From: Hyphomicrobiales bacterium
GTDB lineage: Bacteria > Pseudomonadota > Alphaproteobacteria > Rhizobiales > Rhizobiaceae
DNA: 59,976 nucleotides
Assembly (NCBI GenBank): GCA_900474095.1
Contig: UCOA01000053.1
Location: 1 to 59,976 of the forward strand
Direction: 5' to 3'
The translations under genes and the position numbers were made by a program. How positions within the stretch are numbered: the stretch's first letter is position 1; each line of letters begins with the position of its first letter. Under the pieces are notes generated by a model. That model was not told the origin of the DNA. It saw only the letters and a list, made by a program, of their open reading frames with translations, and searched no databases. Positions 24,371 to 44,257 of the stretch are shown here, piece after piece.

Positions 24371-25345
24371 CTAGATTGCGTTGAGAATCAGCGCCTGATC
24401 GAAGGCGTAGCGAAGAGAGGAATGGTCGGCCGTACCTCGGCCCGCGATGTCGAATGCCGTGCCGTGATCGACGCTGGTACGAATGAAGGGCAAACCGATG
24501 GTGACGTTGACGCCGTTGTCGATGCCAAGATACTTGACCGGAATGAGACCCTGGTCGTGATATTGCGCGACGACGATATCGAACTCGCCCTTGCGGGCCC
24601 GCATGAAAATCGTGTCTCCGGGCCACGGACCAGATGCGTTTATTCCGAGCTCCTGAGCTCGGCTGACCGCCGGCGCAATAATGTCGAGATCTTCGCGTCC
24701 GAACATGCCGTTTTCACCGGCATGGGGATTGAGGCCGGCGACGGCAACGCGGGGCGAAGCAATGCCATAAGCCTTGCCTGCCCTGTGCGCCAGTTCGATC
24801 GTCCTGAGCACGGAATCCTGCGTCACGAGGTCGATGGCATCGCGCAACGAGACGTGGATCGTGACCAGGATGACGCGCAGTTCGTCGTTTGCCAGCATCA
24901 TCGCGAACTTGTCGGTCCCCGACCGTTCTGCAAGAATTTCAGTATGCCCGGGATAATTGAGCCCACCCTTCTTCATTGCCTCCTTGTTGATCGGCGCGGT
25001 GACGATTGCCGCGATGTTGCCTGCCAGCGCTTCGTCGACCGCTCTCACGACATAGTCGTAGCTGGCGCGACCAGCGCGAGCGTCTACCTGACCGATCGGC
25101 AAGTCGTCCGGCAGATCGGAGACGTTGAGAACGGCTATGAGTTTGCTGTCTGAGACAGCCTCATCGACTGACGCGATGGGCTTCACCTGGAGAGGAAGAC
25201 CGAGGGCTCGGACCGCACGATCCATCACCTTGGCGTCACCAATCACCACCGCTTGCTCCGGCAGTCCATCCGCGAAAATGCGCGCGACGATTTCCGGGCC
25301 GATCCCGCAGGGATCGCCCATCGTTATTCCAATAGGTTTCTTCAT
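24371..25345 (-). CDS. pdxA2: 4-phospho-D-threonate/erythronate dehydrogenase
   Basis: 324 residues of the PdxA family. GITMGDPCGIGPEIVAR is the start signature, ITAPINKEAMKKGG the substrate loop, and the metal His residues are in TIHVSLRDAID, GLNPHAGENG and VVAQYHDQG. The neighbour is a DUF1537 kinase, the hallmark of PdxA2 proteins that oxidise and decarboxylate 4-phospho-D-threonate or D-erythronate to dihydroxyacetone phosphate rather than serve vitamin B6 synthesis. ATG 25345 has GGAG seven bases upstream and overlaps the kinase stop as ATGA (25342–25345). Confidence 0.88.
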   Translation of the reverse strand: MKKPIGITMGDPCGIGPEIVARIFADGLPEQAVVIGDAKVMDRAVRALGLPLQVKPIASVDEAVSDSKLIAVLNVSDLPDDLPIGQVDARAGRASYDYVVRAVDEALAGNIAAIVTAPINKEAMKKGGLNYPGHTEILAERSGTDKFAMMLANDELRVILVTIHVSLRDAIDLVTQDSVLRTIELAHRAGKAYGIASPRVAVAGLNPHAGENGMFGREDLDIIAPAVSRAQELGINASGPWPGDTIFMRARKGEFDIVVAQYHDQGLIPVKYLGIDNGVNVTIGLPFIRTSVDHGTAFDIAGRGTADHSSLRYAFDQALILNAI

Positions 25346-26553
25346 TTCTTGTCTCCAAGCCAAAGGCCTCGAAGCACCTCGGCTGATTTCAGCAGGACAT
25401 TCGACGAACCGAAGCCACCCGCCTTTGTGATAATGTAAATGGGATGCGATCCGGTCATGCGGCCGATCGGAATTCCGGGCTCGATCTCGCCCAGAATATC
25501 CAGCGAACCGATCTCGAGTTCGCTCAACACTGATTCGGCCGTGTCGCCCCCAGTCAGGAAGAGCCCGGTCACGGGATGACGTTCCATAATCGTGCGTACC
25601 GCCTGGCCAAGAGCAATCGCGATGGCCCGAGGATTGGCCGACGTGCCGCTCTCAGACGTCGTTAGAATGACATCTCCACTAGATCCAGATTGGCTGTGTT
25701 GCACAAGGGCGTTTTGGGCCGCAAGAATGGGAGAGCGAGACGCCTCCTCGGCGTCGACTATGATCTGCCGGACTTTGCCGGTGCTTATCAGCCTTGAGCA
25801 TTGCTCGCGGCTCAGCGGATTGACGCTGCCGATGACGAAGAGATTCAGCGACGCCGTGGCGGACAACGGTGCGATGTCATCAGCCCATCCCACGTAGTCC
25901 GCCAACGCGGTCGCCAGTCCGGGAGAACCGCACCAAAGGATGGACTTCGGATCCGCCGCCGATTTCACCAGCAGGGCCAGATCTTCCTGCATTGCCGCAT
26001 CGGCAATCAGCAACTTCCGGCCATCAGCGATAAGTTCGCCGGACTTCAACGCTCGAATTTCCGCAAGCCCAAGAAAACGCACTTCTGCGTCTGGGATACT
26101 CCGAAACAGAGCGCGAAGATGCGAGTCTGTTATGGGGTGGAGCGGGTCCTTTGCAAACTCTGTGTTCTCCAACGGCACACCACGAAGAAGCTGACGTCCT
26201 CCTTCAGTGGTACGCCCAACTGCGGGGAAAGCCGGAGCGACAATTGCAATAGACCTACCGGAAGCCGCGAGCGCAGCCGTTATTTCGGCTCCAACGTGGC
26301 CGCGAATGGTGGAATCGACGGTATTGTAAAGAATATCTGCGGACACTAGGCTTTTTGCCGCCAGCGTCGCCCGATCGACAGCGTCCTCAACGGATGTTGC
26401 GCGGCTTGCCTTGTTTACCGAGACAATAGCGGCATCATCAGGCGGCGATCGCCGATGATCGGTGAAGACAACGCATCTGTGTCCCATGCTCACGAATGGT
26501 GCGGCGCCATCCGTTGCACTCGTCAGATCATCGGCTAGAATTCCTACCTTCAA
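25342..26553 (-). CDS. Four-carbon acid sugar kinase (DUF1537)
   Basis: 403 residues. The N-terminal domain begins GILADDLTSATDGAAPFVSM, the sugar-acid binding signature of the family, and the C-terminal nucleotide-binding domain has FLTGGDTAESVLSELEIG and IITKAGGFGS. DUF1537 kinases (OtnK, DtnK, LtnK) phosphorylate C4 of threonate or erythronate. With PdxA2 directly downstream, D-threonate or D-erythronate catabolism to DHAP is the best reading. First gene of a minus-strand operon divergent from a LysR gene; the 107-base gap to it holds the promoters. Confidence 0.9.
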   Translation of the reverse strand: MKVGILADDLTSATDGAAPFVSMGHRCVVFTDHRRSPPDDAAIVSVNKASRATSVEDAVDRATLAAKSLVSADILYNTVDSTIRGHVGAEITAALAASGRSIAIVAPAFPAVGRTTEGGRQLLRGVPLENTEFAKDPLHPITDSHLRALFRSIPDAEVRFLGLAEIRALKSGELIADGRKLLIADAAMQEDLALLVKSAADPKSILWCGSPGLATALADYVGWADDIAPLSATASLNLFVIGSVNPLSREQCSRLISTGKVRQIIVDAEEASRSPILAAQNALVQHSQSGSSGDVILTTSESGTSANPRAIAIALGQAVRTIMERHPVTGLFLTGGDTAESVLSELEIGSLDILGEIEPGIPIGRMTGSHPIYIITKAGGFGSSNVLLKSAEVLRGLWLGDKK

Positions 26554-26660: not shown

Positions 26661-27530
26661 ATGGCCGCCCGATTCCCTTCATTATCCGCACTGAGAGCCT
26701 TTGAATCCGCCGCACGTCATTTGAATTTCGGGCGCGCTGGCGATGAATTGTTTGTTACGCATAGCGCCGTCAGCAAGCAGATACGCTTGCTTGAGGAAGA
26801 TCTGGGAGTGGCCCTTTTCGAAAGACGAAACAGGGCTGTTTTCCTCACCGAGGCGGGGCGACGGCTGCTTGTTACGATGAGTGAGGTGCTCCGCCAGATC
26901 GGCGATTGTTGCGATGAAATCAGAGGTGGCGGTTCGGCACCGCTGGTGGTCTCATGCGAACCGACATTCACGCAGCGTTGGCTAATCCCACGCCTCCCGC
27001 AATTCAATGCACTTCATCCGGATGTCGAGGTTCTTGTATTGGCCGCTGGCGGTCCGGTGAACTTCGACAGGAGCCATATCGATTTGGCACTAAGGAGAAG
27101 CGATTTTTCCTGGTCGCCGGAGCTCTTTATGGAAACGGTGGTCGAAGAGCGTGTCGGCCCCGTATGCGCGCCACGCCTGTTGGTTTCCGGCAGCGATGAT
27201 ATCCTCTCCCTGCCACGCATTCATTCGGCTACTCGTCGAGATGCATGGTCCCGGTACATCGCGGATAGTCGGATTGGAGGTCTAAATCCCCCCGGCAGCC
27301 AAGTGTTCGAACATTTCTATCTGAGCATCGAGGCGGCAATCGCTGGGCTAGGCGCCGCGATCGGCCCAGAACCGTTGGTAGCGGACGCCGTCGAAAGCGG
27401 GCAACTGGTGGCGCCGCGGGGATTCTCCAGCAACGGCTATAGCTATATCCTGTTGAGCCGCCTTCCCTTCGAAGGCGATGCCAGGAGACGAAACTTCCTC
27501 TCCTGGCTTCGAAGGCAGTTTGCCCCTTAA
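26661..27530 (+). CDS. LysR-type regulator (GcvA-like)
   Basis: 289 residues. Helix-turn-helix start FPSLSALRAFESAARHLNFG, HSAVSKQIRLLEEDLGVALF, then a periplasmic-binding-fold effector domain (SCEPTFTQRWLIPRLPQFNA). The LNFGRAGDELFVTHSAVSKQ pattern is the GcvA/AmpR subgroup. It is divergent from the DUF1537–PdxA2 operon and is its probable activator. No Shine–Dalgarno is visible before ATG 26661, which suggests weak or leaderless translation. The following 214 bases to the GntR gene hold no gene I can recognise. Confidence 0.9.
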   Translation: MAARFPSLSALRAFESAARHLNFGRAGDELFVTHSAVSKQIRLLEEDLGVALFERRNRAVFLTEAGRRLLVTMSEVLRQIGDCCDEIRGGGSAPLVVSCEPTFTQRWLIPRLPQFNALHPDVEVLVLAAGGPVNFDRSHIDLALRRSDFSWSPELFMETVVEERVGPVCAPRLLVSGSDDILSLPRIHSATRRDAWSRYIADSRIGGLNPPGSQVFEHFYLSIEAAIAGLGAAIGPEPLVADAVESGQLVAPRGFSSNGYSYILLSRLPFEGDARRRNFLSWLRRQFAP

Positions 27531-30570: not shown

Positions 30571-33282
30571 TTAGACGACGTGCTTGCAGGCCGAGGCTGG
30601 CGTGCGCGTGTCCATGTTCCGGCCCCGATTGAGGTGGTCGTCGATTTCCGCCGCCGCACCGATCATCCGCCCGAACAGGAAGATGGTGAAGGCGGCGGTT
30701 TCCAGGTTGCGGTCGGTCATATTGCCGGCCTGATGATCCTTCCACAGCACCGCCAGCAACAGCGCCGCGATGATCGCATCGACGTTCACGCAGAATACAT
30801 AACGGCTGGCCCCTACCTCATAAAGCTGGCGCACTAGCTCGCGGTAGAAACGGTGGAAAACGTTGTATTCGCCGCGTTCCTCCATGAATTTCGCGATGAA
30901 GCGTTCGCGCGGGTCGAAGTTTTCCGATTTGCCCTTGAAGACCGGATGGTGGACGCCAGGCAGCGCGCGGACCTCTGTTCCCAGTTCCTTGGCCTGCGCC
31001 TTTTCGCGTTTGTAGGCCAGCGCAAATTCCCGTGCCATCGCCGTCAGATCGAGCCCATGCGCGGGATCTGTCGGGTCCTTCAGCCCCTTACCGCGGAACT
31101 GCTCCAGCAAGAATGCCATGCCCTCGAAGCCGTTACCGCCGTGGCTATAGCCGGAATGGGTCAGGAAGCCGACCATCGCCTTGTTGATCTGCACCCGGCC
31201 GGGCGTCTGCGGGCCATCGGCGGACACCGCGCCCTTGGCCCCCTGTGCAGTGATCGACCCCGGCCCGTTCGAGATCAGAAGCCCGATCAGGATCTGGACA
31301 TAAAGCGCCTCGGTGGGATCGGGCTTCTTGCCGGTCATCGCCAGACAGCAGATATCGGCCATGGTCCAGTGCGAGAAACGTTCCTCGCGCGGAATACCCC
31401 ACAGGCTGCCAGAGCGGTGATGCTCGCCCGGAATGGTCGCGCCGACCATGACGCCGTAAAGCCGCAGATACCACGGCAGCGTCTCGGCCGTCAGACGGCT
31501 GATGCGCTTGCGAGCCAAGGGACCCCAGGCGATGGTCGTGGTGATCGCGGCCAAGATCGCGTCGCGCGACAGCCGTTGGTCAAAGCCCAGCAAAAACCGC
31601 AGGAACACCGACTTGCCGCCCCGCGCTTTGATTGCGGCCAGCATGGCTTCAGGTCGGGGATCATCTGCATCCTCGGGCGTGGCAAGGAACAGCGCCCGGG
31701 TTTCATCGTCCACCGAGATATCCGACACGTCGAAGTCGTCGTCCCGGCCGTCGCACAGGCCCGATTGGGCGAACAACGTGATCAGCGCGCGGGCACAGGC
31801 CAGCGCGCGTTCAACCCGGCGCGGGCCGGTGATCGCCGCCGCTACCGACATGACCGTGTTGGGCGAGTTTCCGGCATCTCGCGCCGCATCCGCCGCCAGC
31901 AGGATCGGGTCGCCGACCAGATTGACCTCGGCCGCCACGGCCACGTCCAGCAAGGCTCGGTCATGGGCATCGGCGATTTCGTGGACCAAGGGAAGCGCGA
32001 ACATCGCCTCAAGCGGTTGCAGCGCCAGATCCAGCACGCGGTGGCCGTGGACGCTGGTCACCTGCGTCTGCGGGTCCATCAGCGACGCGCCCGAGGCGTC
32101 CTTCATCGACTGCCGCGCCATCACCGCGCCGATCTGCTGCGACCGGACGGCGATCTGTTCATCGTAGGGCGCTGGCGCGACGACAGTGGGCAGGACCAGA
32201 TCAGGGGGCAGTGTCAGGCCCTGATCGTTGGCGATCCACGGCTTGAGCGACAAGGACCCTCGCGGAGCGAAATCCGGCTGGATGCCGTTCAGCGCCATCA
32301 CGGCTGTCAGGGCCGCAGGAATATCGGCGATATTGGTGACAAGGGCTCCCTTGGCGGAAACATGCGGTGTTTCGGGCGTGTAGATTCCCCCGACACCGAA
32401 TGCCTCCATGAACCAGCGTTCCTTGTCCTCGGCGCTGTCGCCCGAGCCGGCCATCGCCCCGGCATGGCCGACGGCGCGGGTCAACTTGGCCTTCCAGCGG
32501 CCGACGACGCAGGCCACGACCGGCTTCTGCCAGTCGATGTTCTTTTCGTAATAGCCGCCCGGTTCGGCGTAGAGCACTCCCGCCTTGCTGCGCTGATCCT
32601 TGGCAAAGGCCAGCGCAAAGTCGCGCGCCGCATATTGGATATAGACGTCCTTGCCCGACGAGATCAGCGTCGTCGTGCCCCAACCCGCCGTGGTCAGGTA
32701 TTGTGCAATGGTCGTGGTGAAGCCACCCGAGTTGGAAAAGATCGCGACCGAGCCCTTGACCAGAGACTCCTCGGGGTGATCGCCGCCCAAGGCGCCGCCG
32801 ATGCGGACGCGGTTCCAGCTGTCTGCCACGCCAAGACAATTGCCGCCGATGACATCGATGCCATTCGCCTGCGCCATCGCCCGAATTTCGCGTGCGTCAT
32901 GCACTGCGATCTTTTCGGTGATGATGACGATCTTGCGCAGGTCAGGATTTACGCGGATCAGTTCTGCCACGCCGTCCCGCACACCAGCAGGCGGCAGATA
33001 CACCACGCCAGTGTTGAAGCTGTGACCGGCGCGAATGCCCTCCAGCACGGTGTTGAACACCGGGATATCGCCAGCAGGCGTCTTCAGCACCTGACCCGAA
33101 CGGCCGGGCGAGGTGCCGAAGACAACGTTGCCGCCGGAAAAGGCATTGCTGACCGGGGTCACGGTTCGACTTTCGCCGCCAAGGATATTCAGCACGCAAA
33201 CACGATCCTCGGGTGAGGCGATGGCTTCGAGCCGGTCCAGGCCAAGGAAATAGGGTAGGCCGGAAATTGCTTGTTGTCGCAT
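30571..33282 (-). CDS. ATP-citrate-lyase-like large subunit (SucD–citrate synthase fusion)
   Basis: 903 residues. The N-terminal third is a SucD-type CoA-ligase domain: SNAFSGGNVVFGTSPGRSGQ, GGNCLGVAD, FSNSGGFTTT and the phosphohistidine motif VGHAGAMAG. The C-terminal part is a citrate-synthase-like lyase: THSGYSHGGNGFEG, LPGVHHPVFKGKSENFDPRE and VNVDAIIAALLLAVL give the His, His and Asp equivalents of the citrate synthase triad. This is the AclA layout of two-subunit ATP-citrate lyase, but about 300 residues longer. Where ACL and citrate synthase have a DHG motif this protein has ISNGPGSITAQ (His to Asn, by-eye alignment), hinting at a different acid. Its partner is the ATP-grasp gene ending ten bases upstream. 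Confidence 0.85.
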   Translation of the reverse strand: MRQQAISGLPYFLGLDRLEAIASPEDRVCVLNILGGESRTVTPVSNAFSGGNVVFGTSPGRSGQVLKTPAGDIPVFNTVLEGIRAGHSFNTGVVYLPPAGVRDGVAELIRVNPDLRKIVIITEKIAVHDAREIRAMAQANGIDVIGGNCLGVADSWNRVRIGGALGGDHPEESLVKGSVAIFSNSGGFTTTIAQYLTTAGWGTTTLISSGKDVYIQYAARDFALAFAKDQRSKAGVLYAEPGGYYEKNIDWQKPVVACVVGRWKAKLTRAVGHAGAMAGSGDSAEDKERWFMEAFGVGGIYTPETPHVSAKGALVTNIADIPAALTAVMALNGIQPDFAPRGSLSLKPWIANDQGLTLPPDLVLPTVVAPAPYDEQIAVRSQQIGAVMARQSMKDASGASLMDPQTQVTSVHGHRVLDLALQPLEAMFALPLVHEIADAHDRALLDVAVAAEVNLVGDPILLAADAARDAGNSPNTVMSVAAAITGPRRVERALACARALITLFAQSGLCDGRDDDFDVSDISVDDETRALFLATPEDADDPRPEAMLAAIKARGGKSVFLRFLLGFDQRLSRDAILAAITTTIAWGPLARKRISRLTAETLPWYLRLYGVMVGATIPGEHHRSGSLWGIPREERFSHWTMADICCLAMTGKKPDPTEALYVQILIGLLISNGPGSITAQGAKGAVSADGPQTPGRVQINKAMVGFLTHSGYSHGGNGFEGMAFLLEQFRGKGLKDPTDPAHGLDLTAMAREFALAYKREKAQAKELGTEVRALPGVHHPVFKGKSENFDPRERFIAKFMEERGEYNVFHRFYRELVRQLYEVGASRYVFCVNVDAIIAALLLAVLWKDHQAGNMTDRNLETAAFTIFLFGRMIGAAAEIDDHLNRGRNMDTRTPASACKHVV

Positions 33283-33292
33283 GGCTTTCTCC

Positions 33293-34567
33293 CTAGGCCG
33301 CGATGTTCATGGAGCGTGCGATCTGCTCGCGCCCGCCGGCGCGCATCCAGTCGTCGATGCGCTTGGCGTAATTCACGACCTCGGAAATCGCGCTGTCGAA
33401 GCCGAAGAAGCGGTACGGCACGCCCAGACTGTCCAGCGTATCGGCCAGATTGCCCATGCCGCGCACCAGGTTCGGACCGCCGCGCCCCACGACGACGTAG
33501 AGCGGTACCGGCCCATGCTTGGAAAAATGTTCGCGCAGCGCGTCGCCCATGCCCCGAAAGGTTTCGAGGATGTCGGTGTTGTTCGACTTGCCGCCGATGA
33601 TGAACAGCACGTTGGTTTGTTTCAGGAAATGGCGATAGCAGATCGCGGCCACCGCCTTCATCTTCTCATAGGGCGGGTTACCGCCAAAATCGGACGAGAT
33701 GATCGCGGCCTCGCCCAGAACCTCGGTCACAAGGCTGTTTGCGCCGCCGCCAAAGGTCGGCGCAAGGATGCTGCCGGCTTCGTTGATCACGAACACATCC
33801 GATTGACCCTGGTGGGTCCGCAGCTGATTCACTTCTTGTTCGAAATCCGAAATGTCGGCAGCAAAAAGGTGCGGCGGCAGGCCCAGGCGACCAACACGAG
33901 GATCGTCGCGGTCGAACCCGCACTTGAAGTCACAGGCAATCGGCGTCAAGCGCCCTTCCTTGCCCGGCCGCATGCGGATCGGGTTCAGCTCCAGCGTGGT
34001 CATTCCGTAGTGGTGCATCAGCTCCCACAACTTTGGCAGATGCTGGACCAGCGGCGAAATCACCTCTTTCGGCGCGCCGATATCAGTCAGCGCATTGGCC
34101 ACGACAAACGCCTTTAACCCGGTCAGGGCATCGAAGGGGATCGAGGCGATTTCGGTCTTGTCCAGCTCTTCGATATCGACCCCGCCGCGATGGGTGATTG
34201 TCATGGTCGGTGCGCGATATCGGGTGTCGTCGGTGATCGAAAAATAGATCTCATGCTCGGCCGGAACGCCCGCTTCGAAGGTGACGCCATTGGCCTTGGC
34301 GGTGGCGTTACCGTGGCGGTGTTCCGCGAAATACAGCCGTTCCTTTTCCGCCAGGGCCGTGCGCAGGTCGCGGGCCCTGCCGATCAACCCGGCCTTGCCC
34401 TTCATGCCGACGCCGCCGCGAAAGACGGGCTTGACGAAGACAAGGCCGTGGCCGTCTATCATCGCCTGGATCTGGTCTTCGGACGCATCGGGTCCAAGCA
34501 CCTCGGTCGCGGGAAAACCGACATGGGCCAGCAATTGTGCACCCGTGAGCATTCCGGTCACTTCCAT
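33293..34567 (-). CDS. ATP-citrate-lyase-like ATP-grasp subunit
   Basis: 424 residues, starting at ATG 34567 with AGGAGG five bases upstream; the long open frame above it runs antisense-like into the terminator and tctA. N-terminal ATP-grasp fold (MLTGAQLLAHVGFPATEVLG, FVKPVFRGGVGMKGKAGLIG, LELNPIRM with the metal Asn) as in SucC/AclB, then a CoA-ligase/citrate-binding flavodoxin-like domain (ILAPTFGGGANSLVTEVLGE, VLFIIGGKSNNTDIL, VVGRGGPNLVRGM), similar to the citrate-binding domain of ACL. It should use ATP to phosphorylate the partner's His and form an acyl-CoA of the imported acid. Ten bases separate it from the large subunit. Confidence 0.85.
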   Translation of the reverse strand: MEVTGMLTGAQLLAHVGFPATEVLGPDASEDQIQAMIDGHGLVFVKPVFRGGVGMKGKAGLIGRARDLRTALAEKERLYFAEHRHGNATAKANGVTFEAGVPAEHEIYFSITDDTRYRAPTMTITHRGGVDIEELDKTEIASIPFDALTGLKAFVVANALTDIGAPKEVISPLVQHLPKLWELMHHYGMTTLELNPIRMRPGKEGRLTPIACDFKCGFDRDDPRVGRLGLPPHLFAADISDFEQEVNQLRTHQGQSDVFVINEAGSILAPTFGGGANSLVTEVLGEAAIISSDFGGNPPYEKMKAVAAICYRHFLKQTNVLFIIGGKSNNTDILETFRGMGDALREHFSKHGPVPLYVVVGRGGPNLVRGMGNLADTLDSLGVPYRFFGFDSAISEVVNYAKRIDDWMRAGGREQIARSMNIAA

Positions 34568-34594
34568 GAGTTCCTCCTGTAGTTCCTGAAATAT

Positions 34595-34627
34595 GCAAGA
34601 AAGGAACACGGCCCGAAGGCCGTGTCC
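34595..34627 (-). terminator. Intra-operon terminator/attenuator
   Basis: On the minus strand GGACACGGCC-TTCG-GGCCGTGTTCC forms a ten-pair stem (one bulged A) with an extra-stable TTCG loop, followed by TTTCTT. It lies in the 68-base gap between tctA and the ATP-grasp gene, all in one direction, so it should reduce read-through from the transporter genes to the enzyme genes. Confidence 0.75.
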
Positions 34628-34635
34628 GGAAGTCA

Positions 34636-36138
34636 TCAGTCCGTGAAGATCTCGTCGCGCGATTTGCGCATTGAGGGCAGGACAGCAATGATCAGCGCGA
34701 CAAGGCCGATCAGCAGCAGGACAGCCGACAGCGGCGAGGTCAGGAAGGTGGTCATGCTGCCGTCCGAGATGATCAGCGCCTGACGCAGCTTTTCCTCGAG
34801 CAGCCGTCCCAGCACGAAGCCAAGGGCAAGCGGTGCCGCCTCGAACTGCAACTTGTAAAGCGCAAAGCCCAGCAGCCCTAAGATGCCCGCCATGATCACC
34901 TGACCCGCGTCGTTCGAGATCGAGAACAGGCCGATGCAGCAGAAGGCCACGATCGCCGGAAACAGCAGGCGGTAGGGCACCTTCAGCAGCTTCACCCACA
35001 CACCGATCAGTGGCAGGTTGATGATGACCAGCATCAGGTTGCCAATCCACATCGACGCGACCAGACCCCAGAACAGGTCAGGGTTATTCTGGATCACCTG
35101 CGGGCCGGGGACGATGCCCTGGATCATCATCGCGCCGACCATCAGCGCCATGACAGCGTTCGGCGGCAGTCCCAATGTCAACAGCGGGATGAACGAGGTC
35201 TGCGCGCCGGCGTTATTGGCCGATTCCGGGCCGGAGACAGCCTGCGGCACGCCTTTGCCGAAATCCTGCGGCCGGTCTGAAATACGCTTTTCCAGCGCAT
35301 AGCTGGCAAAGGGCGCAAGGATCGCGCCATTGCCCGGCAGCACGCCCAGGATCGAGCCAAGGCCGGTTCCGCGCAGGATCGCGCCAAGGTTCTGGCGCAG
35401 TTCTGTCAGGGTCGGTAGCAGCCGTCCAATCGTGCCGCGCATGACGTCGCGCTTTTCCGGGTCGGCAAGGTTCTTGAAGATCTCGCCAAAGCCGAAGACG
35501 CCCATTGCCAGCACCACGAACTCGATGCCGTCGGTCAGCATTTGCAGCCCGAAGGTCATCCGTTCGCGCCCGGTTTCCATATCGGCGCCGACGCAGGACA
35601 GCAGAACCCCCGCGACGATCATCGCCAGCGCCTTGACGAGAGAGCCATGCGCCAAGACCACCGCCAGCACCAGACCCATAATCATCAGCGAAAAGTATTC
35701 GGCGGGGCCGAACAGCAGCCCAAGCTTGGTCATCGGCATCGCCAGCGCCGCGATGACGATGGTCGCGAAGGTGCCCGCGATGAAAGAGCCGATCGCCGCC
35801 AGCCCCAGCGCAAGACCCGCCTGCCCCTTCTTGGCCATTTCATGCCCGTCGATGGCGGTGACCACCGCCGTCGCCTCGCCGGGGATATTGACCAGGATTG
35901 CCGTGGTCGAGCCGCCGTATTGCGCGCCGTAATAGATGCCGGCAAGCATGATCAGCGCGCCGGTCGGGTCCAGCGACAGCGTGACCGGCAAGAGGATCGA
36001 GATTGTCGCCACCGGGCCCACGCCCGGCAACACGCCCACCAACGTGCCGATCAGGCAGCCGATGAAGCAGAAGAAGATATTTTGCAGGGTAAAGGCTACC
36101 GAAAGGCCCAGACCCAGATTTTCAAACATGGCCATCAT
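34636..36138 (-). CDS. tctA: Tripartite tricarboxylate transporter, TctA
   Basis: 500 residues with about eleven to twelve hydrophobic segments, the large membrane subunit of the TTT family. Diagnostic loops are GVLPGVGPVATISILLPVTL near the N-terminus and GVLPGNGAILAPFASYALEK in the middle, followed by GAQTSFIPLLTLGLPPNAVMA; these duplicated glycine/proline-rich loops line the substrate site. Symport with protons or sodium is the family rule. Start is one of three near ATGs (36138, 36135, 36129); the tctB stop ends two bases before the first. Works with TctB and the TctC receptor upstream. Confidence 0.93.
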   Translation of the reverse strand: MMAMFENLGLGLSVAFTLQNIFFCFIGCLIGTLVGVLPGVGPVATISILLPVTLSLDPTGALIMLAGIYYGAQYGGSTTAILVNIPGEATAVVTAIDGHEMAKKGQAGLALGLAAIGSFIAGTFATIVIAALAMPMTKLGLLFGPAEYFSLMIMGLVLAVVLAHGSLVKALAMIVAGVLLSCVGADMETGRERMTFGLQMLTDGIEFVVLAMGVFGFGEIFKNLADPEKRDVMRGTIGRLLPTLTELRQNLGAILRGTGLGSILGVLPGNGAILAPFASYALEKRISDRPQDFGKGVPQAVSGPESANNAGAQTSFIPLLTLGLPPNAVMALMVGAMMIQGIVPGPQVIQNNPDLFWGLVASMWIGNLMLVIINLPLIGVWVKLLKVPYRLLFPAIVAFCCIGLFSISNDAGQVIMAGILGLLGFALYKLQFEAAPLALGFVLGRLLEEKLRQALIISDGSMTTFLTSPLSAVLLLIGLVALIIAVLPSMRKSRDEIFTD

Positions 36139-36139
36139 G

Positions 36140-36691
36140 TCAGTATCCGATCAACCAGGGCGCTACAGCCAGCGACAGCCCAAGCGCGTAACGGAACAGG
36201 GCGATGCAGACCACGGTCAGGATCGCCGCGAAGATCAGCAGTTCGCCATAGCGCACATCCTTGGCAGCGATGCCGGAGAATATGATCGACAGAGGCGTCG
36301 CCACCGCCATGCCCAGCACCGGCACCGAAAACGCGCCGAAGTCATAGCCGCGGATGGTGATCGCGAACAGGAAGACGCCGATCAGAACCGGCAGCATGTC
36401 GCGAATGGGCCAGCTTCCGGTCGTTTCCGCCCGGTCATTCCATGTCACCGCGATCTGCATTAGCCCCAGCAGGATGATCATGATCGACAATGCGCGCGGC
36501 AACAGGCCTGAGCCGACGCCACCCTCGCCCTGGAAGGGCAGGTCGGAACCTGCCCAAAGCGCGAAGAGGCCAAATACCACGAGGCTGATACCAGCCAGCC
36601 TTTCGCGGCCGAGCCATGGGTACGATGGCGGGGAGGCAGGCGGGGTTGGCGGACGAGCGGGGAGATCAACGTGGATAACCTCTTGGGTCAT
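36140..36691 (-). CDS. tctB: Tripartite tricarboxylate transporter, TctB
   Basis: 183 residues with four predicted membrane helices (GISLVVFGLFALWAG, LSIMIILLGLMQIAV, MLPVLIGVFLFAITI, LLIFAAILTVVCIALF) after a proline-rich cytoplasmic start. TctB subunits are poorly conserved; the assignment rests on size, topology and position between tctC and tctA, which is the classic tctCBA order. Its ATG lies three bases after the tctC stop. Confidence 0.88.
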   Translation of the reverse strand: MTQEVIHVDLPARPPTPPASPPSYPWLGRERLAGISLVVFGLFALWAGSDLPFQGEGGVGSGLLPRALSIMIILLGLMQIAVTWNDRAETTGSWPIRDMLPVLIGVFLFAITIRGYDFGAFSVPVLGMAVATPLSIIFSGIAAKDVRYGELLIFAAILTVVCIALFRYALGLSLAVAPWLIGY

Positions 36692-36694
36692 GGC

Positions 36695-37666
36695 TTATTC
36701 CACCTTGATGTCTGCGGCCTTGACGACCTCGCCCCAACGGGTGCGCTCGGCAGCCATGAAGTCGGCAAACGCCTGACCGACGAGGTGCGACGGAACGCCA
36801 CCGTCCTTTCGCAGGCTCTCGATGAAGGCCGGATCGGCCAGCGTTTTAGCGGTGGCATCGGCCACCTTGGTGCGCACATCCTCCGGCAGACCTTTGGGTC
36901 CCAAAAGACCATACCAAGCCGAGGCGCTGTATTCGGGCAGGCCGGATTCGGCCACGGTAGGCACGTCGGGCAGCGCAGCAAAGCGGTCTTTCCCGGTCAC
37001 GGCCAGCGCCTTCAGCGTGCCATCCTGAATCAGACCGATCACCGACGGCACGGTCGTCACCATGAAATCGATATGACCGCCCAAGAGGTCGTTAATCGCC
37101 GGGCCTGCGCCTTTATAGGGTACGTGCTTCAGCTTGATGTCGGCCATCTGGCCCATCAGCAGCGTGGCGACATGGCTGGCCGAGGCATTGCCCGCCGAGC
37201 CATAGACCAGCTCGCCGGCCTTCGCCTGCTTCAGCAGTTCCTGCATCGAATTGACTTGCAGGCGCGGACCGGCGACGACCACCAGCGTGGCGTCGGCGAT
37301 CATGGCGATGGGGTCCAGCGTCTCGGCCGGGTCGTTACGCAGCTTGAAGATATGCGGGTTGACGACCATCGGACCCTGGTTGCCGATCAGCAGCGTGTAG
37401 CCGTCGGGATCGGATTTGGCGGCGACATCGGTGCCCATGTTGGCCGCGGCGCCCGGACGGTTTTCCACGATGACGCGACCGCCAAGCGCCTTTTCAAACC
37501 GCGCCGCAAAGACGCGCGCGATGGCGTCTGTGCCGCCACCCGCGGCATAGGACACAACGATGGTCACCGGCTTTGACGGATAGTCCTGCGCCATGGCGGG
37601 CAGCGCGGCAAGCGATATGGTCGCCACGCTTACGGCAAGCGCAAATCGACGAGTGAATTTAAGCAT
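36695..37666 (-). CDS. tctC: Tripartite tricarboxylate receptor, TctC
   Basis: 323 residues. Cleavable signal peptide (RRFALAVSVATISLAALPAM A) followed by QDYPSKPVTIVVSYAAGGGTD, the standard mature start of Bug/TctC receptors; the ligand loop GGGTD and later SAGNASASHVA are seen. The receptor decides the substrate of the TTT system. The PrpF-like isomerase and the ACL-like enzyme suggest a tricarboxylate such as citrate, aconitate or a homologue, but Bug proteins as a family bind many carboxylates. GGGAGG precedes the ATG. Confidence 0.92.
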   Translation of the reverse strand: MLKFTRRFALAVSVATISLAALPAMAQDYPSKPVTIVVSYAAGGGTDAIARVFAARFEKALGGRVIVENRPGAAANMGTDVAAKSDPDGYTLLIGNQGPMVVNPHIFKLRNDPAETLDPIAMIADATLVVVAGPRLQVNSMQELLKQAKAGELVYGSAGNASASHVATLLMGQMADIKLKHVPYKGAGPAINDLLGGHIDFMVTTVPSVIGLIQDGTLKALAVTGKDRFAALPDVPTVAESGLPEYSASAWYGLLGPKGLPEDVRTKVADATAKTLADPAFIESLRKDGGVPSHLVGQAFADFMAAERTRWGEVVKAADIKVE

Positions 37667-37722
37667 GTGTTTTCCTCCCTTGGTAAAACAGTCTGCGACG
37701 CCACACAGCGCCCAAAGCTAAG

Positions 37723-38793
37723 TCAGTTTTTGCGCCGAACCAGCGCGGCTCCTTCAAACAGTCGCCGGCAGGTGCGGGTGATGAAGACGACCGGGTCAAG
37801 CGTGGTTTCGTCCCGTTCGACGCGAACATCTATGCGCCCGGTCGGATGTTCCAGCGTCAGGTCGGCCGGAAAGCTCAGCTCGGGCAGCATGGCGCCAACA
37901 ATGCTGTCGGGCAGCGTCGCGGCAATGGCAATCGACACGGCCCCGGTTGTGGCCAGCGACGTGTGGCAGGCATGCGGCGTGAAATAGCGCACGGCCAGCG
38001 TGCCACCGTTGCGCGGCGTCCCGATCAATACGGGTTTGGGCAGAACCGAGTCGCGAACATCGCCAAGACCCATCCGCCGCCCGGCTTCGATCCTGATTTC
38101 CTCAAGCTGGGCCATGAATTCCCTGCTGGCATCCAGTTCCGCCGCGCTTTCGGATCCGGTCAGACCGAAATTCTCGGCCCGCGCGATGACCACGGGGGTT
38201 GCGCCGTCGATTAACGAGACGGGGACGCCGTTGATGATTTCCTGCGGTGTGCCCGAAGGCAGCAGCATACCGGTCTTTGCGCCTACTGCTTCAAGGAAGG
38301 CAAGATAAACCGGCGCGGCAGTGCCCGGCACGCCGTCGATCGCGGTTTCGCCCTGATAGCGCAGCTCGCCACCCGGTGTCTGAATCCGCGCCTCGATGAT
38401 CTTGCCGGTGTTCACATTATGCACGCGCACGGTGGTTTCGCCCCTCTGCGCCGAAATCAGCCCCTTTTCGATGGCAAAGGCCCCGACCGCCGACAGCATG
38501 TTGCCGCAATTCGGCCCGGTATCGACCGCGCGTTCCAGAACCTTCACCTGTGCGAACAGGTAATCCACATCGGCTCCGTCGCGCGTCGACGGCCCGACAA
38601 TGGCGACCTTGGATGACAGCGAATTGCCGCCACCAAGCCCGTCAATTTCCAGCGGGTGCCCCGATCCCATCATCTCGAGCAGCAACTCGTCACGTTGCCG
38701 GGGGTCGCTGGGCAGATCGCTGTTCAGAAAGAACGGACCTTTCGAGGTGCCGCCGCGCATCAGCACGCAAGGAATGCGTATCTGGTCGTCCAT
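37723..38793 (-). CDS. PrpF/4-oxalomesaconate tautomerase-like isomerase
   Basis: 356 residues, the size of GalD-type 4-oxalomesaconate tautomerases and slightly shorter than PrpF (2-methylaconitate cis–trans isomerase). Diaminopimelate-epimerase-like two-lobed fold with PCVLMRGGTSKGPFFLNSDL at the start, DTGPNCGNMLSAVGAFAIEK carrying the first active-site Cys, and FTPHACHTSLATTGAVSIA with the second Cys region. These enzymes move a proton across a double bond in unsaturated tricarboxylates. ATG 38793 was chosen over the longer frame because GGAG precedes it and homology begins here. First gene of the minus-strand island operon. Confidence 0.88.
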   Translation of the reverse strand: MDDQIRIPCVLMRGGTSKGPFFLNSDLPSDPRQRDELLLEMMGSGHPLEIDGLGGGNSLSSKVAIVGPSTRDGADVDYLFAQVKVLERAVDTGPNCGNMLSAVGAFAIEKGLISAQRGETTVRVHNVNTGKIIEARIQTPGGELRYQGETAIDGVPGTAAPVYLAFLEAVGAKTGMLLPSGTPQEIINGVPVSLIDGATPVVIARAENFGLTGSESAAELDASREFMAQLEEIRIEAGRRMGLGDVRDSVLPKPVLIGTPRNGGTLAVRYFTPHACHTSLATTGAVSIAIAATLPDSIVGAMLPELSFPADLTLEHPTGRIDVRVERDETTLDPVVFITRTCRRLFEGAALVRRKN

Positions 38794-38894
38794 GTATGAT
38801 TCTCTCCTGCGGCAAGATCGCGCCGTCTCCATGGACCAGAGTGAGCCAAAACTACTGTGTTGTTAATTGCAAAGAATTCGTACATTATTCCGGT

Positions 38895-39842
38895 ATGAGA
38901 AATAATTTCGAATTTCTGGACTTACGCGCCTTTCTAGCGGTCCTCGACCTGTCGTCGTTTCACGAGGCTGCAACGGTGCTGCATCTGTCGCCGCCGGCGC
39001 TGTCGCGGCGCATCCGCGGGCTGGAAGAGGCTGTAGGCGCGCAATTGATCGAACGGACGACACGGCGTGTCGCGCCCACTCAGATCGGGCGCGAACTGGC
39101 CCCGCTGGTTCGCCGTCTGGTCGATGAATTTGAGGAATCGATCCTGTCGATTTCCGAGCTGGGCGGGCGACATCGCGCGCAGGTCACGCTGGCTTCGGTG
39201 CCAACCGCCGCGTTCTACTTTCTGCCGCGCGTGATCGAGGCATTCAACCATCGTTTTCCCGGAATCCGTTTTCGTATCATGGACTTGTCCGCCAATGAAG
39301 GTCTTGATGCTGTAGCCAATGGCGAAGTCGAATTCGGGATCAACATCACCGGGGCGACGCGGGACGATTTGACCTTTACACCGCTGATGGAGGATCCGTT
39401 CGTCCTTGCCTGCCGACGTGACCATCCCTTTGCCTCGGAAAAAACCCTGTCATGGTCGGCGCTGGAGGGGCAGCCGCTGATCGGCGTGTCTAAGAAATCA
39501 GGCAACCGCGCGGTGTTGGACCAAGCGCTGGCAATGGCAGATCTGCGGCTGAACCTGAACTGGTTTTATGAGGTGAACCACCTGTCAACGTCTTTGGGAC
39601 TGGTCGAGGCCGGATTGGGCATTTCGGTCCTGCCCCGGCTTGCCACGCCGCAACGCGAACACCCGCTGATTGCGACAGTGCAGTTGGAAAACCCGGTAGT
39701 GGTGCGATCGATTGGCCTCGTAGAACGCCGAGGTGCGCGGCTGTCACCTTCGGCCCTGCGGTTCCGCGACATGCTGATCAACGAATGGCGCGGTGGCGCG
39801 GCAGAGATAGCAAGATCTCGCAGCGAGACCGACCGGGTCTGA
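38895..39842 (+). CDS. LysR-type regulator of the tricarboxylate island
   Basis: 315 residues. DNA-binding start FEFLDLRAFLAVLDLSSFHE, LSPPALSRRIRGLEEAVGAQ, followed by a two-lobe effector domain (VTLASVPTAAFYFLPRVIEA). Divergent from the PrpF-like gene with 101 bases between the start codons, so it is the probable activator of the whole island and would sense the imported acid. The long open frame upstream overlaps the isomerase gene and is not used. No Shine–Dalgarno is obvious before ATG 38895. Confidence 0.9.
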   Translation: MRNNFEFLDLRAFLAVLDLSSFHEAATVLHLSPPALSRRIRGLEEAVGAQLIERTTRRVAPTQIGRELAPLVRRLVDEFEESILSISELGGRHRAQVTLASVPTAAFYFLPRVIEAFNHRFPGIRFRIMDLSANEGLDAVANGEVEFGINITGATRDDLTFTPLMEDPFVLACRRDHPFASEKTLSWSALEGQPLIGVSKKSGNRAVLDQALAMADLRLNLNWFYEVNHLSTSLGLVEAGLGISVLPRLATPQREHPLIATVQLENPVVVRSIGLVERRGARLSPSALRFRDMLINEWRGGAAEIARSRSETDRV

Positions 39843-43213: not shown

Positions 43214-44257
43214 TCAGCCAAGCGCCGAAATCACTGCTGTGGTGATTGCTTCTGTCTTGTCCTTGCCAGGGAAGGCGCCGATGCCACGTGCAGTCGTCGC
43301 CTCGATCGCGGCCATGACATTGCAAGCGGCGGTTTTCTCGCCAAGGTGATCCAGCATCATCGCGCCCGACCATATGGCGGCGATCGGATTGGCAATGCCG
43401 AGATGGGCGATGTCTGGCGCCGAGCCATGGACGGGTTCGAACATGGATGGCGCCGAGCGATCCGGATTGATATTGGCGGAGGCGGCGAAACCTAGCCCGC
43501 CCTGAATGGCGGCGCCAAGGTCTGTGAGGATGTCGCCGAACAGATTAGAGGCGACCACTACGTCGAGGCTTTCCGGCGCCATGACCATGCGGGCGGCCAT
43601 CGCATCGATATGATAGCTCGTCACCGATACATCTGGATACTCGCGCGCAAGCGCCTGGGTGATCTCGTCCCAGAACACCATTGAATATTTCTGTGCATTG
43701 GACTTGGTGACGGAAGCGAGCTTTCCGCGCCGCCCACGCGCTTGCTCGAAGCCGAAGCGCAGGATGCGCTCCACGCCCTTGCGGGTGAAGATCGAGGTTT
43801 CGACCGCCACTTCATTGTCGGCACCCTGATGAACGCGGCCGCCCGCGCCGGAATATTCACCCTCGGTGTTTTCGCGAATGCAGAGAATATCGAAGGCGTC
43901 TGCCTTCAGCGGACCTTGAACGCCCGGCAGCACTCGGTGCGGGCGGATGTTGGCATATTGGACGAAGGCCTTGCGGATGGGCAGAAGAAGCCCGTGTAGC
44001 GAGACAGAATCCGGCACTTTCGCTGGCCAGCCTACCGCGCCGAGCAGGATGGCATCGAAGGATTTCAGGGTGTCTATGCCATCGGCGGGCATCATCGTAC
44101 CATGCTGGAGGTAATAGTCGCAGGACCAGGGATAGCTGGTCGCGGCCAAAGAAAAGCCGCCTATGTCGGCTGCTTTTTCCAGAACGACCCAAGCCGCATT
44201 GGTCACGTCAGGGCCGATACCGTCTCCCGGCAGAAGGGCAATTTTGTAGGTCTTCAT
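43214..44257 (-). CDS. Tartrate/D-malate-type dehydrogenase
   Basis: 347 residues of the isocitrate/isopropylmalate dehydrogenase family. YKIALLPGDGIGPDVTNAAW at the start, IRENTEGEYSGAGGR (substrate loop), and the metal Asp cluster in VVASNLFGDILTDLGAAIQG with the NAD-binding EPVHGSAPDIAHLGIANPI. The NTEGEYSG plus VHQG pattern is that of tartrate dehydrogenase/decarboxylase and D-malate dehydrogenases (TtuC/DmlA), which oxidise and often decarboxylate the 2-hydroxyacid. AAGGATAACCG precedes ATG 44257. It lies downstream of a cupin and 2-hydroxyacid dehydrogenase on the same strand, suggesting a hydroxyacid catabolic unit. Confidence 0.88.
   Translation of the reverse strand: MKTYKIALLPGDGIGPDVTNAAWVVLEKAADIGGFSLAATSYPWSCDYYLQHGTMMPADGIDTLKSFDAILLGAVGWPAKVPDSVSLHGLLLPIRKAFVQYANIRPHRVLPGVQGPLKADAFDILCIRENTEGEYSGAGGRVHQGADNEVAVETSIFTRKGVERILRFGFEQARGRRGKLASVTKSNAQKYSMVFWDEITQALAREYPDVSVTSYHIDAMAARMVMAPESLDVVVASNLFGDILTDLGAAIQGGLGFAASANINPDRSAPSMFEPVHGSAPDIAHLGIANPIAAIWSGAMMLDHLGEKTAACNVMAAIEATTARGIGAFPGKDKTEAITTAVISALG

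Follow-up and report, generated by a model that had tools for sequence, protein, structure and literature searches.

The question raised by the present locus is what a gene pair resembling ATP-citrate lyase (ACL) does in an operon that also encodes a tricarboxylate transporter and an isomerase. The locus lies in a 59,976-nucleotide stretch of DNA (here called the window, meaning the whole stretch that was analysed; contig UCOA01000053.1 of assembly GCA_900474095.1) from a Hyphomicrobiales bacterium of the family Rhizobiaceae (the host; genome of 6.40 Mb in 279 contigs, 99.73% complete). The operon is probably a tricarboxylate-utilisation unit that ends in a type II ACL, with aconitate, tricarballylate or citrate being funnelled to citrate, which would then be cleaved. 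There is strong sequence support for placing the pair in the published type II ACL family, because its sequence, the published primer sites, its fold and a related clade in reductive tricarboxylic acid (rTCA) cycle gene clusters all point to it. What appears to be new is the link between a type II ACL and the uptake and isomerisation of tricarboxylates, the enzyme family itself being already known. Direct results are the set of genes and its genomic context, the family, conserved residues and predicted fold of the pair, and the lack of a detected POR_N-family gene in the host. The features concerned are the following.

38895-39842, plus strand: LysR-type regulator (315 aa; PF00126 and PF03466), divergent from prpF
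38860-38876, no strand assigned: candidate LysR box TTGTTAATTGCAAAGAA, predicted, in the lysR-prpF intergenic region
37723-38793, minus strand: prpF, PrpF-family isomerase, YbhH-like, candidate aconitate isomerase (356 aa; PF04303, E 6e-108)
36695-37666, minus strand: tctC, periplasmic receptor (PF03401, E 4e-67)
36140-36691, minus strand: tctB, small membrane subunit (PF07331, E 3e-12)
34636-36138, minus strand: tctA, large membrane subunit of a tripartite tricarboxylate transporter (PF01970, E 2e-147)
33293-34567, minus strand: type II ACL small subunit (AclB-like), ATP-grasp plus citrate-binding domain (424 aa; PF08442 and PF16114)
30571-33282, minus strand: type II ACL large subunit (AclA-like), a fusion protein (903 aa; PF13607/PF02629)

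An earlier note on this DNA had described a LysR regulator divergent from prpF, followed by tctCBA, an ATP-grasp gene and a 903-residue fusion, and this gene set was found in place, with the start of the ATP-grasp gene corrected. The gaps from prpF to the 903-aa gene, in the order prpF-tctC-tctB-tctA-ATP-grasp-fusion, are 56, 3, 1, 68 and 10 bases, which is consistent with a single transcript. For the ATP-grasp gene, a 585-aa open reading frame from 35050 was rejected as an over-extension in favour of the ATG at 34567, which is preceded by aggagg and is the most likely start, giving 424 aa. An antisense reading frame of 787 aa (30853-33216, plus strand) is taken to be a high-GC artefact. The candidate LysR box falls in the best-conserved intergenic block of four aligned operons (the window, L043, L046 and L047), in which 16 of its 17 positions are identical by eye, and it may serve the divergent regulator.

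Both subunits find their best solved relatives in citryl-CoA synthetase. The ATP-grasp protein matches Citrate_bind (PF16114, E 1e-13) as well as PF08442, and its best Protein Data Bank (PDB) match is the large subunit of that enzyme (6hxq_B; E 2e-25 in a single-sequence and 2e-39 in a profile search), while the first third of the 903-aa protein most resembles the small subunit (6hxq_A, E 2e-34). The 903-aa protein comprises a CoA-binding/CoA-ligase alpha module (residues ~1-330), a helical part (~365-590) and a module resembling citrate synthase and citryl-CoA lyase (~590-903). The phospho-His motif GHAGA occupies residues 272-276 (H273), and the residues of interest in the lyase module are H714, H779, D835, R792 and R872. 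As the earlier note had recognised, both the GHAGA motif and a citrate-synthase-type His/His/Asp set (H714, H779 and D835) are present; H273 and the three residues of the set are each invariant in 108/108 sequences, the window included, as is each of N672, H709, R792 and R872. These 108 family members, among them enzymes of magnetotactic type and of rTCA gene clusters, can be aligned end to end. The large-subunit gene is preceded on its strand by an ATP-grasp gene in 103 of the 108 loci (median gap 55 bases; 867 bases in L120, with another gene inside), a recurrence that is more than chance, and the five loci without it offer at most 504 bases of upstream sequence.

The likeness to the type II ACL of tubeworm symbionts rests on published primer sites. 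The primers encode VAKEEWF and NGFEAIA (the available text of PMC3522073), and the window carries EDKERWF and NGFEGMA at the matching sites, 1318 bases apart, with 6 of 22 and 4 of 21 bases mismatched. Of 123 sequences, 67 have the best sites of both primers at a spacing of 1.0-1.5 kb, which in 66 cases is 1303-1339 bases; the other 56 are without a primer pair because each primer was represented by its single best site on each strand. For Magnetococcus MC-1, type II ACL genes have been postulated and citrate cleavage has been detected in the organism (PMC6783814, in the text available), and relatives from Planctomycetes have been placed between citryl-CoA synthetase/lyase and type II ACL (PMC5459899, likewise). 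Given the primer sites, the solved relatives, the C-terminal fold and the context of the rTCA clade described below, citrate cleavage is the chemistry expected of the family. The pair is no new type of enzyme, since it belongs to a published family with a documented role in autotrophs.

Structure prediction for residues 420-903 gave a confident model (predicted local distance difference test, pLDDT, 88.1; predicted template-modelling score, pTM, 0.87), and all 50 PDB entries listed for it are citrate or methylcitrate synthases, citryl-CoA lyase or the lyase module of ACL (among those listed, best E 2e-5 and best target-normalised TM score 0.66). In a weak alignment with citryl-CoA lyase, H714, H779, R792 and D835 fall on its GSAHGG, GYGH, DPR and NVD motifs. 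In that same alignment N672, an Asn in 108/108 sequences, stands at the His of the DHG motif of citryl-CoA lyase, a difference that is family-wide. The region ~365-590, mostly helical and confidently predicted from ~420 on, has no Pfam match and may be the source of the extra length over type I AclA. With a citrate-synthase-type module so predicted and with these solved relatives, the pair can be called ACL-like, as it had been. That it is instead an ordinary succinyl-CoA synthetase, or an FdrA-type protein without lyase activity, is hardly credible: the N-terminal module does match succinyl-CoA synthetase alpha profiles, but the scores are far under the NCBIfam cut-offs (119.7 against 336 and 58.4 against 370 bits), no FdrA model is among the Pfam or NCBIfam matches with E up to 0.01, and the C-terminal part has the predicted fold of a citrate synthase or lyase with invariant catalytic-type residues. 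Both identities were rejected on scores and predicted fold, and the danger foreseen in the earlier note, that the pair might fall within these groups, did not materialise. Type I ACL was rejected as well, AclA having ~610 aa against 903 aa here and the sequence match being weak. The 903-aa protein is encoded once in the host genome; two further matches (E 7e-20 and 3e-14, over ~300 aa) cover the N-terminal module only.

The role of the pair was judged from the surroundings of its relatives. These came from GTDB contigs (best 80 of 426 used, a sample biased to near relatives) and from a survey of the phylum, giving a context set of 109 stretches (the window and L035-L142), of which L083, a 717-aa fragment, was excluded from the tree and the counts. 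The tree of 108 sequences was built by a quick method from the type II family only, with no outgroup, and groups were assigned from it: 48 sequences in the window clade, 28 rows of heterotroph sister groups (two branches, not one clade), 12 in an rTCA clade, 19 of magnetotactic type and one other. The name of the 19-member group depends on one member (G353), which we take to be Magnetococcus MC-1. Context was counted with tblastn and reference proteins, which detects only the families used as references, and the counts cover the surroundings of the pair, not whole genomes; a locus was regarded as well covered if the pair was flanked by 7.5 kb or more on each side.

The rTCA clade (support 100) comprises Gallionellaceae, Nitrosomonadales, Hydrogenophilales, other betaproteobacteria and one Rhodospirillales metagenome-assembled genome, and its members are 57-61% identical to the window large subunit. 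Genes of rTCA type stand beside the pair in 10 of the 12 (L086, L087, L093, L097, L100, L102, L106, L108, L114 and L116) and in all six that are well covered; the other two (L091 and L095) lie on contigs below 5 kb. Across these loci they include POR-type subunits, Hdr-like proteins, aconitase, monomeric isocitrate dehydrogenase and SucCD, not all of them in every contig. In L086, Pfam identified POR_N, TPP_enzyme_C, POR subunits, iron-sulphur proteins, aconitase and the monomeric isocitrate dehydrogenase; SucC and SucD of the clade were named by eye and similarity. The oxidoreductase is of the 2-oxoacid:ferredoxin type, with 2-oxoglutarate or pyruvate as substrate. Some ACL-bearing autotrophs can run the TCA cycle oxidatively, and this, together with the relatives in rTCA-type clusters, would favour a pair that either works in reverse, as a citrate synthase that forms ATP, or takes part in an incomplete reductive cycle. 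The host, however, has a citrate synthase of its own (one gene) and no POR_N-family match, in a search that was positive in 10 of 14 control genomes, so that, judged by the POR_N family, a reductive cycle is improbable, and the transporter and PrpF share the operon with the pair; we regard such a role as very improbable. Autotrophy of the host by the rTCA cycle was rejected for want of a POR_N match, in agreement with the earlier opinion that this organism has no evident need of a reductive-TCA ACL. In the window clade (48 sequences), no rTCA marker among the reference families searched was found beside the pair. The pair thus probably falls outside the reductive cycle, the host being without a POR_N match and the context being that of a transporter instead, which concerns its role and not its family. 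Published rTCA gene clusters combine type II aclAB with korABCD, Hdr-Flx, aconitase and isocitrate dehydrogenase (PMC6315080, in the text available).

The context of the window pair is that of tricarboxylate uptake. TctA, TctB and TctC are all present (PF01970, PF07331 and PF03401), identifying a tripartite tricarboxylate transporter, and PrpF belongs to the PrpF superfamily (PF04303, 361.4 bits against a cut-off of 27) with YbhH as its best PDB match (6otv, E 3e-113). Six TctA genes and a single PrpF gene, that of the operon, occur in the 6.4 Mb of the host, and chance adjacency is therefore unlikely in that genome. Among 30 well-covered loci of the window clade, TctA/TctC occurs in 17, PrpF in 10 and TcuA with TcuB in five, and 21 have at least some transporter part of those searched. 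The heterotroph sister groups have a transporter part in 14 of 20 well-covered loci (a major facilitator superfamily, MFS, protein in seven of these). With the model of the tricarballylate/H+ symporter TcuC (cut-off 445 bits), the MFS protein of Caballeronia L038 reaches 757.9 bits; the TcuA found in Gemmobacter L035 likewise exceeds its cut-off (670.9 against 369). In the context set as a whole, 23 of the 30 TctA-bearing and 12 of the 15 PrpF-bearing stretches have that gene on the same strand as the pair. A LysR homologue is divergent from prpF in eight further loci, with Tct genes in L043, L046, L047, L094 and L104 and with an ATP-binding cassette (ABC) transporter in L042, L050 and L103; the type of transporter varies while regulator, isomerase and lyase persist. 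Such tricarboxylate-use loci with a type II ACL occur in Rhizobiales, Rhodobacterales, Burkholderiales and Halomonas, and presence of the enzyme alone is thus no ground for calling a genome autotrophic. The proposed tie to tricarboxylate uptake accordingly gains from the relatives, in which transporter and isomerase both recur rather than being lost. The unusual substrate that had also been proposed is not needed, as the transporter types and the TcuAB of relatives point to ordinary aconitate, citrate or tricarballylate.

Two further kinds of neighbour were noted. A 4HBT thioesterase lies on the strand of the pair in 18 loci (e.g. L035:12696-13088, YciA-like, below the cut-off); hydrolysis of acetyl-CoA there would squander ATP already spent. 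Malic enzyme (MaeB type, so named in L088) is near the pair in L073, L088, L089, L096, L101, L113 and L120, and the count for the 20 well-covered loci of the heterotroph sister groups is five; it could provide a route from oxaloacetate or malate to pyruvate.

Several observations weigh against a tricarboxylate-utilisation unit that ends in citrate cleavage. By sequence, the C-terminal part resembles solved lyases weakly (citryl-CoA lyase 6hxp, E 0.05). The full-length model (pLDDT 83.9, pTM 0.63) aligns along its length to type I ACLs with a root-mean-square deviation of 17-23 Å in ranks 2-6, a poor superposition that supports the modules and not their arrangement. Nine of the 30 well-covered window-clade loci lack any transporter family searched, and 20 of the 30 have no PrpF beside the pair. 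In the 19 magnetotactic-type stretches (the reading frames of five were also inspected by eye) no rTCA or transporter reference was found beside the pair; what counts here is the lack of rTCA matches, as the contextual rTCA link then rests on the clade of 12. The operon contains no aconitase gene. The remaining points are the NCBIfam name of the window PrpF, 4-oxalomesaconate tautomerase (478.9 bits, above the cut-off of 440), and three residue differences in the large subunit, and each opens an alternative.

If the equivalog name were taken at its word, PrpF would be a true 4-oxalomesaconate tautomerase and the operon would degrade a C7 tricarboxylate derived from aromatic compounds, the hydrated form of which is citrate-like. 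Yet there is no ring-cleavage or downstream hydratase/aldolase gene in the operon, and, of the solved structures, E. coli YbhH resembles all three PrpFs tested more closely than the 4-oxalomesaconate enzyme does. Moreover, the same model also names the PrpFs of L042, an ABC-transporter locus, and L035, a TcuAB locus, and therefore looks broad. We consider this alternative quite improbable.

The residue differences emerged from a comparison of 31 autotroph-type sequences (the 12 of the rTCA clade and the 19 of magnetotactic type) with the 48 of the window clade, at positions at least 95% conserved within both. Of 261 such positions in the large subunit, three differ (F627L, A713S and N778H, from autotroph type to window clade; within the latter, L068 and L080 depart from this at 713, and L066 does so at 778). 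Two of these adjoin the catalytic-type H714 and H779, and the hypergeometric probability of at least two of three doing so is 0.014 for a residue set of our own choosing. A citrate homologue (2-methylcitrate, homocitrate, or a hydroxylated or carboxylated citrate) is thereby a possible substrate, in which case PrpF would act on the matching unsaturated acid; its PDB relatives do include methylaconitate and methylitaconate isomerases. This is nevertheless unlikely on balance, as the ATP-grasp/citrate-binding subunit has no comparable fixed difference between the groups (100 sequences), the eight named residues of the large subunit are invariant in all 108, the heterotroph sister groups retain N778 (28/28), and the TcuA-, TcuB- and TcuC-type partners of relatives belong to tricarballylate use. 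It is similarly doubtful that S713 and H778 mark the window clade as an ATP-dependent lyase devoted to catabolism, its specificity altered so that it cleaves a non-citrate tricarboxylate delivered by PrpF, which would amount to a new activity and pathway.

Citrate remains the likely acid cleaved, and trans-aconitate is a plausible acid imported. In the pathway that we propose, LysR would sense the acid, TctCBA would import the tricarboxylate and PrpF would convert trans-aconitate, or a close relative, to cis-aconitate. A hydration is required at this point because PrpF only shifts a double bond and the lyase module should need a 3-hydroxyacyl-CoA; since the operon has no hydratase gene, an aconitase of the host, assumed here, is the simplest link and would hydrate cis-aconitate to citrate. 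Citryl-CoA would then be formed from citrate, ATP and CoA by the ATP-grasp subunit acting with phospho-His H273 of the fusion, after which the C-terminal module, which resembles citrate synthase (H714, H779 and D835), would cleave it into acetyl-CoA and oxaloacetate. In this scheme the hydration by aconitase, the reaction direction and the regulation are presumed. The system can therefore hardly be self-contained, as had been supposed, if the imported acid is unsaturated. If the scheme holds, acetyl-CoA and oxaloacetate would be obtained directly, sparing part of the carbon from the two decarboxylations of the TCA cycle and giving tricarboxylates a possibly carbon-saving entry into both.

Close relatives of the large subunit are rare near the host and widely scattered elsewhere. 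It was found in two of 61 genomes in a sample of the host's kin (the host and G007 of the same genus), in two of 289 in a class sample (the host and G208) and in 39 of 398 in a phylum sample; in the phylum sample, the 38 genomes other than the host belong to other classes, with 48-57% identity across the matched regions, and the 19 of them whose surroundings were taken all form one clade. A further 20 plasmid records carry it, 19 covering at least 80% of the query. When other genomes were searched, as had been suggested, the same gene set with lysR turned up in Rhizobium giardinii L047, Paracoccus L043 and Gemmobacter L046, its proteins being 71-99% identical to those of the window. In the tree the window sequence groups with Rhizobium giardinii and then with Paracoccus and Gemmobacter, and this grouping, with 77-94% identity of the operon proteins and LysR in Paracoccus L043, suggests lateral transfer between Rhodobacterales and Rhizobiaceae. 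Separately, the copy in an Anaerolineae metagenome-assembled genome is very close to one in a genome of the host's own class (L078 and L141), a likeness that may be due to contamination or recent transfer. Elsewhere in the window, positions 24371-26553 encode an SBD_N/NBD_C kinase and a PdxA-family dehydrogenase, with a LysR gene at 26661-27530, a pair that we presume to be of the type known from four-carbon sugar-acid use; an Iso_dh-family dehydrogenase (347 aa; 43214-44257) is close to the operon and apparently separate from it.

These results suggest a food-using role of type II ACL in non-autotrophs and offer cultivable hosts for its genetic and biochemical study, no purified example having been found in the literature consulted, in so far as its text was available. 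Nor was a type II ACL in a catabolic operon found reported in the accessible part of the open-licence literature. Among known systems, the Bacillus tar operon (TarA/TarB/TarR) likewise joins a regulator and a transporter to an aconitate isomerase of the PrpF superfamily, in which TarA and TbrA interconvert cis- and trans-aconitate (PMC11495376, in the text available); the likeness is at superfamily level, the other surrounding genes differ, and 'citrate lyase' appears nowhere in the main text of that source. Genes of TcuAB or TcuC type, known from tricarballylate tcuABC, stand beside the pair in relatives and are absent from the window operon. In the five relatives that have it, TcuAB would feed tricarballylate into cis-aconitate. 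Type I ACL (Chlorobium AclBA, human ACLY) shares its module order with the window pair, of which the same reaction is expected, but its alpha part matches at E 1e-12 to 8e-4 and its large subunit has ~617 aa (6hxj_B) against 903 aa. Citryl-CoA synthetase and citryl-CoA lyase (6hxq and 6hxp), whose two chemical steps are expected of the window pair as well, are separate enzymes, whereas in the window a single fusion protein joins the synthetase alpha part to the lyase and has an additional helical region. The closest system is type II ACL itself, as in tubeworm symbionts, Thioflavicoccus and magnetotactic cocci, with the same two adjacent genes for an ATP-grasp protein and a CoA-ligase/lyase fusion of ~900 aa; the members treated here as autotroph-type are ~52-61% identical to the window large subunit. 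In the available text of PMC3522073, PMC6783814 and PMC6315080 this enzyme is handled as one of the reductive TCA cycle and CO2 fixation, while the window pair, in a host without a POR_N match, belongs to an operon for tricarboxylate uptake.

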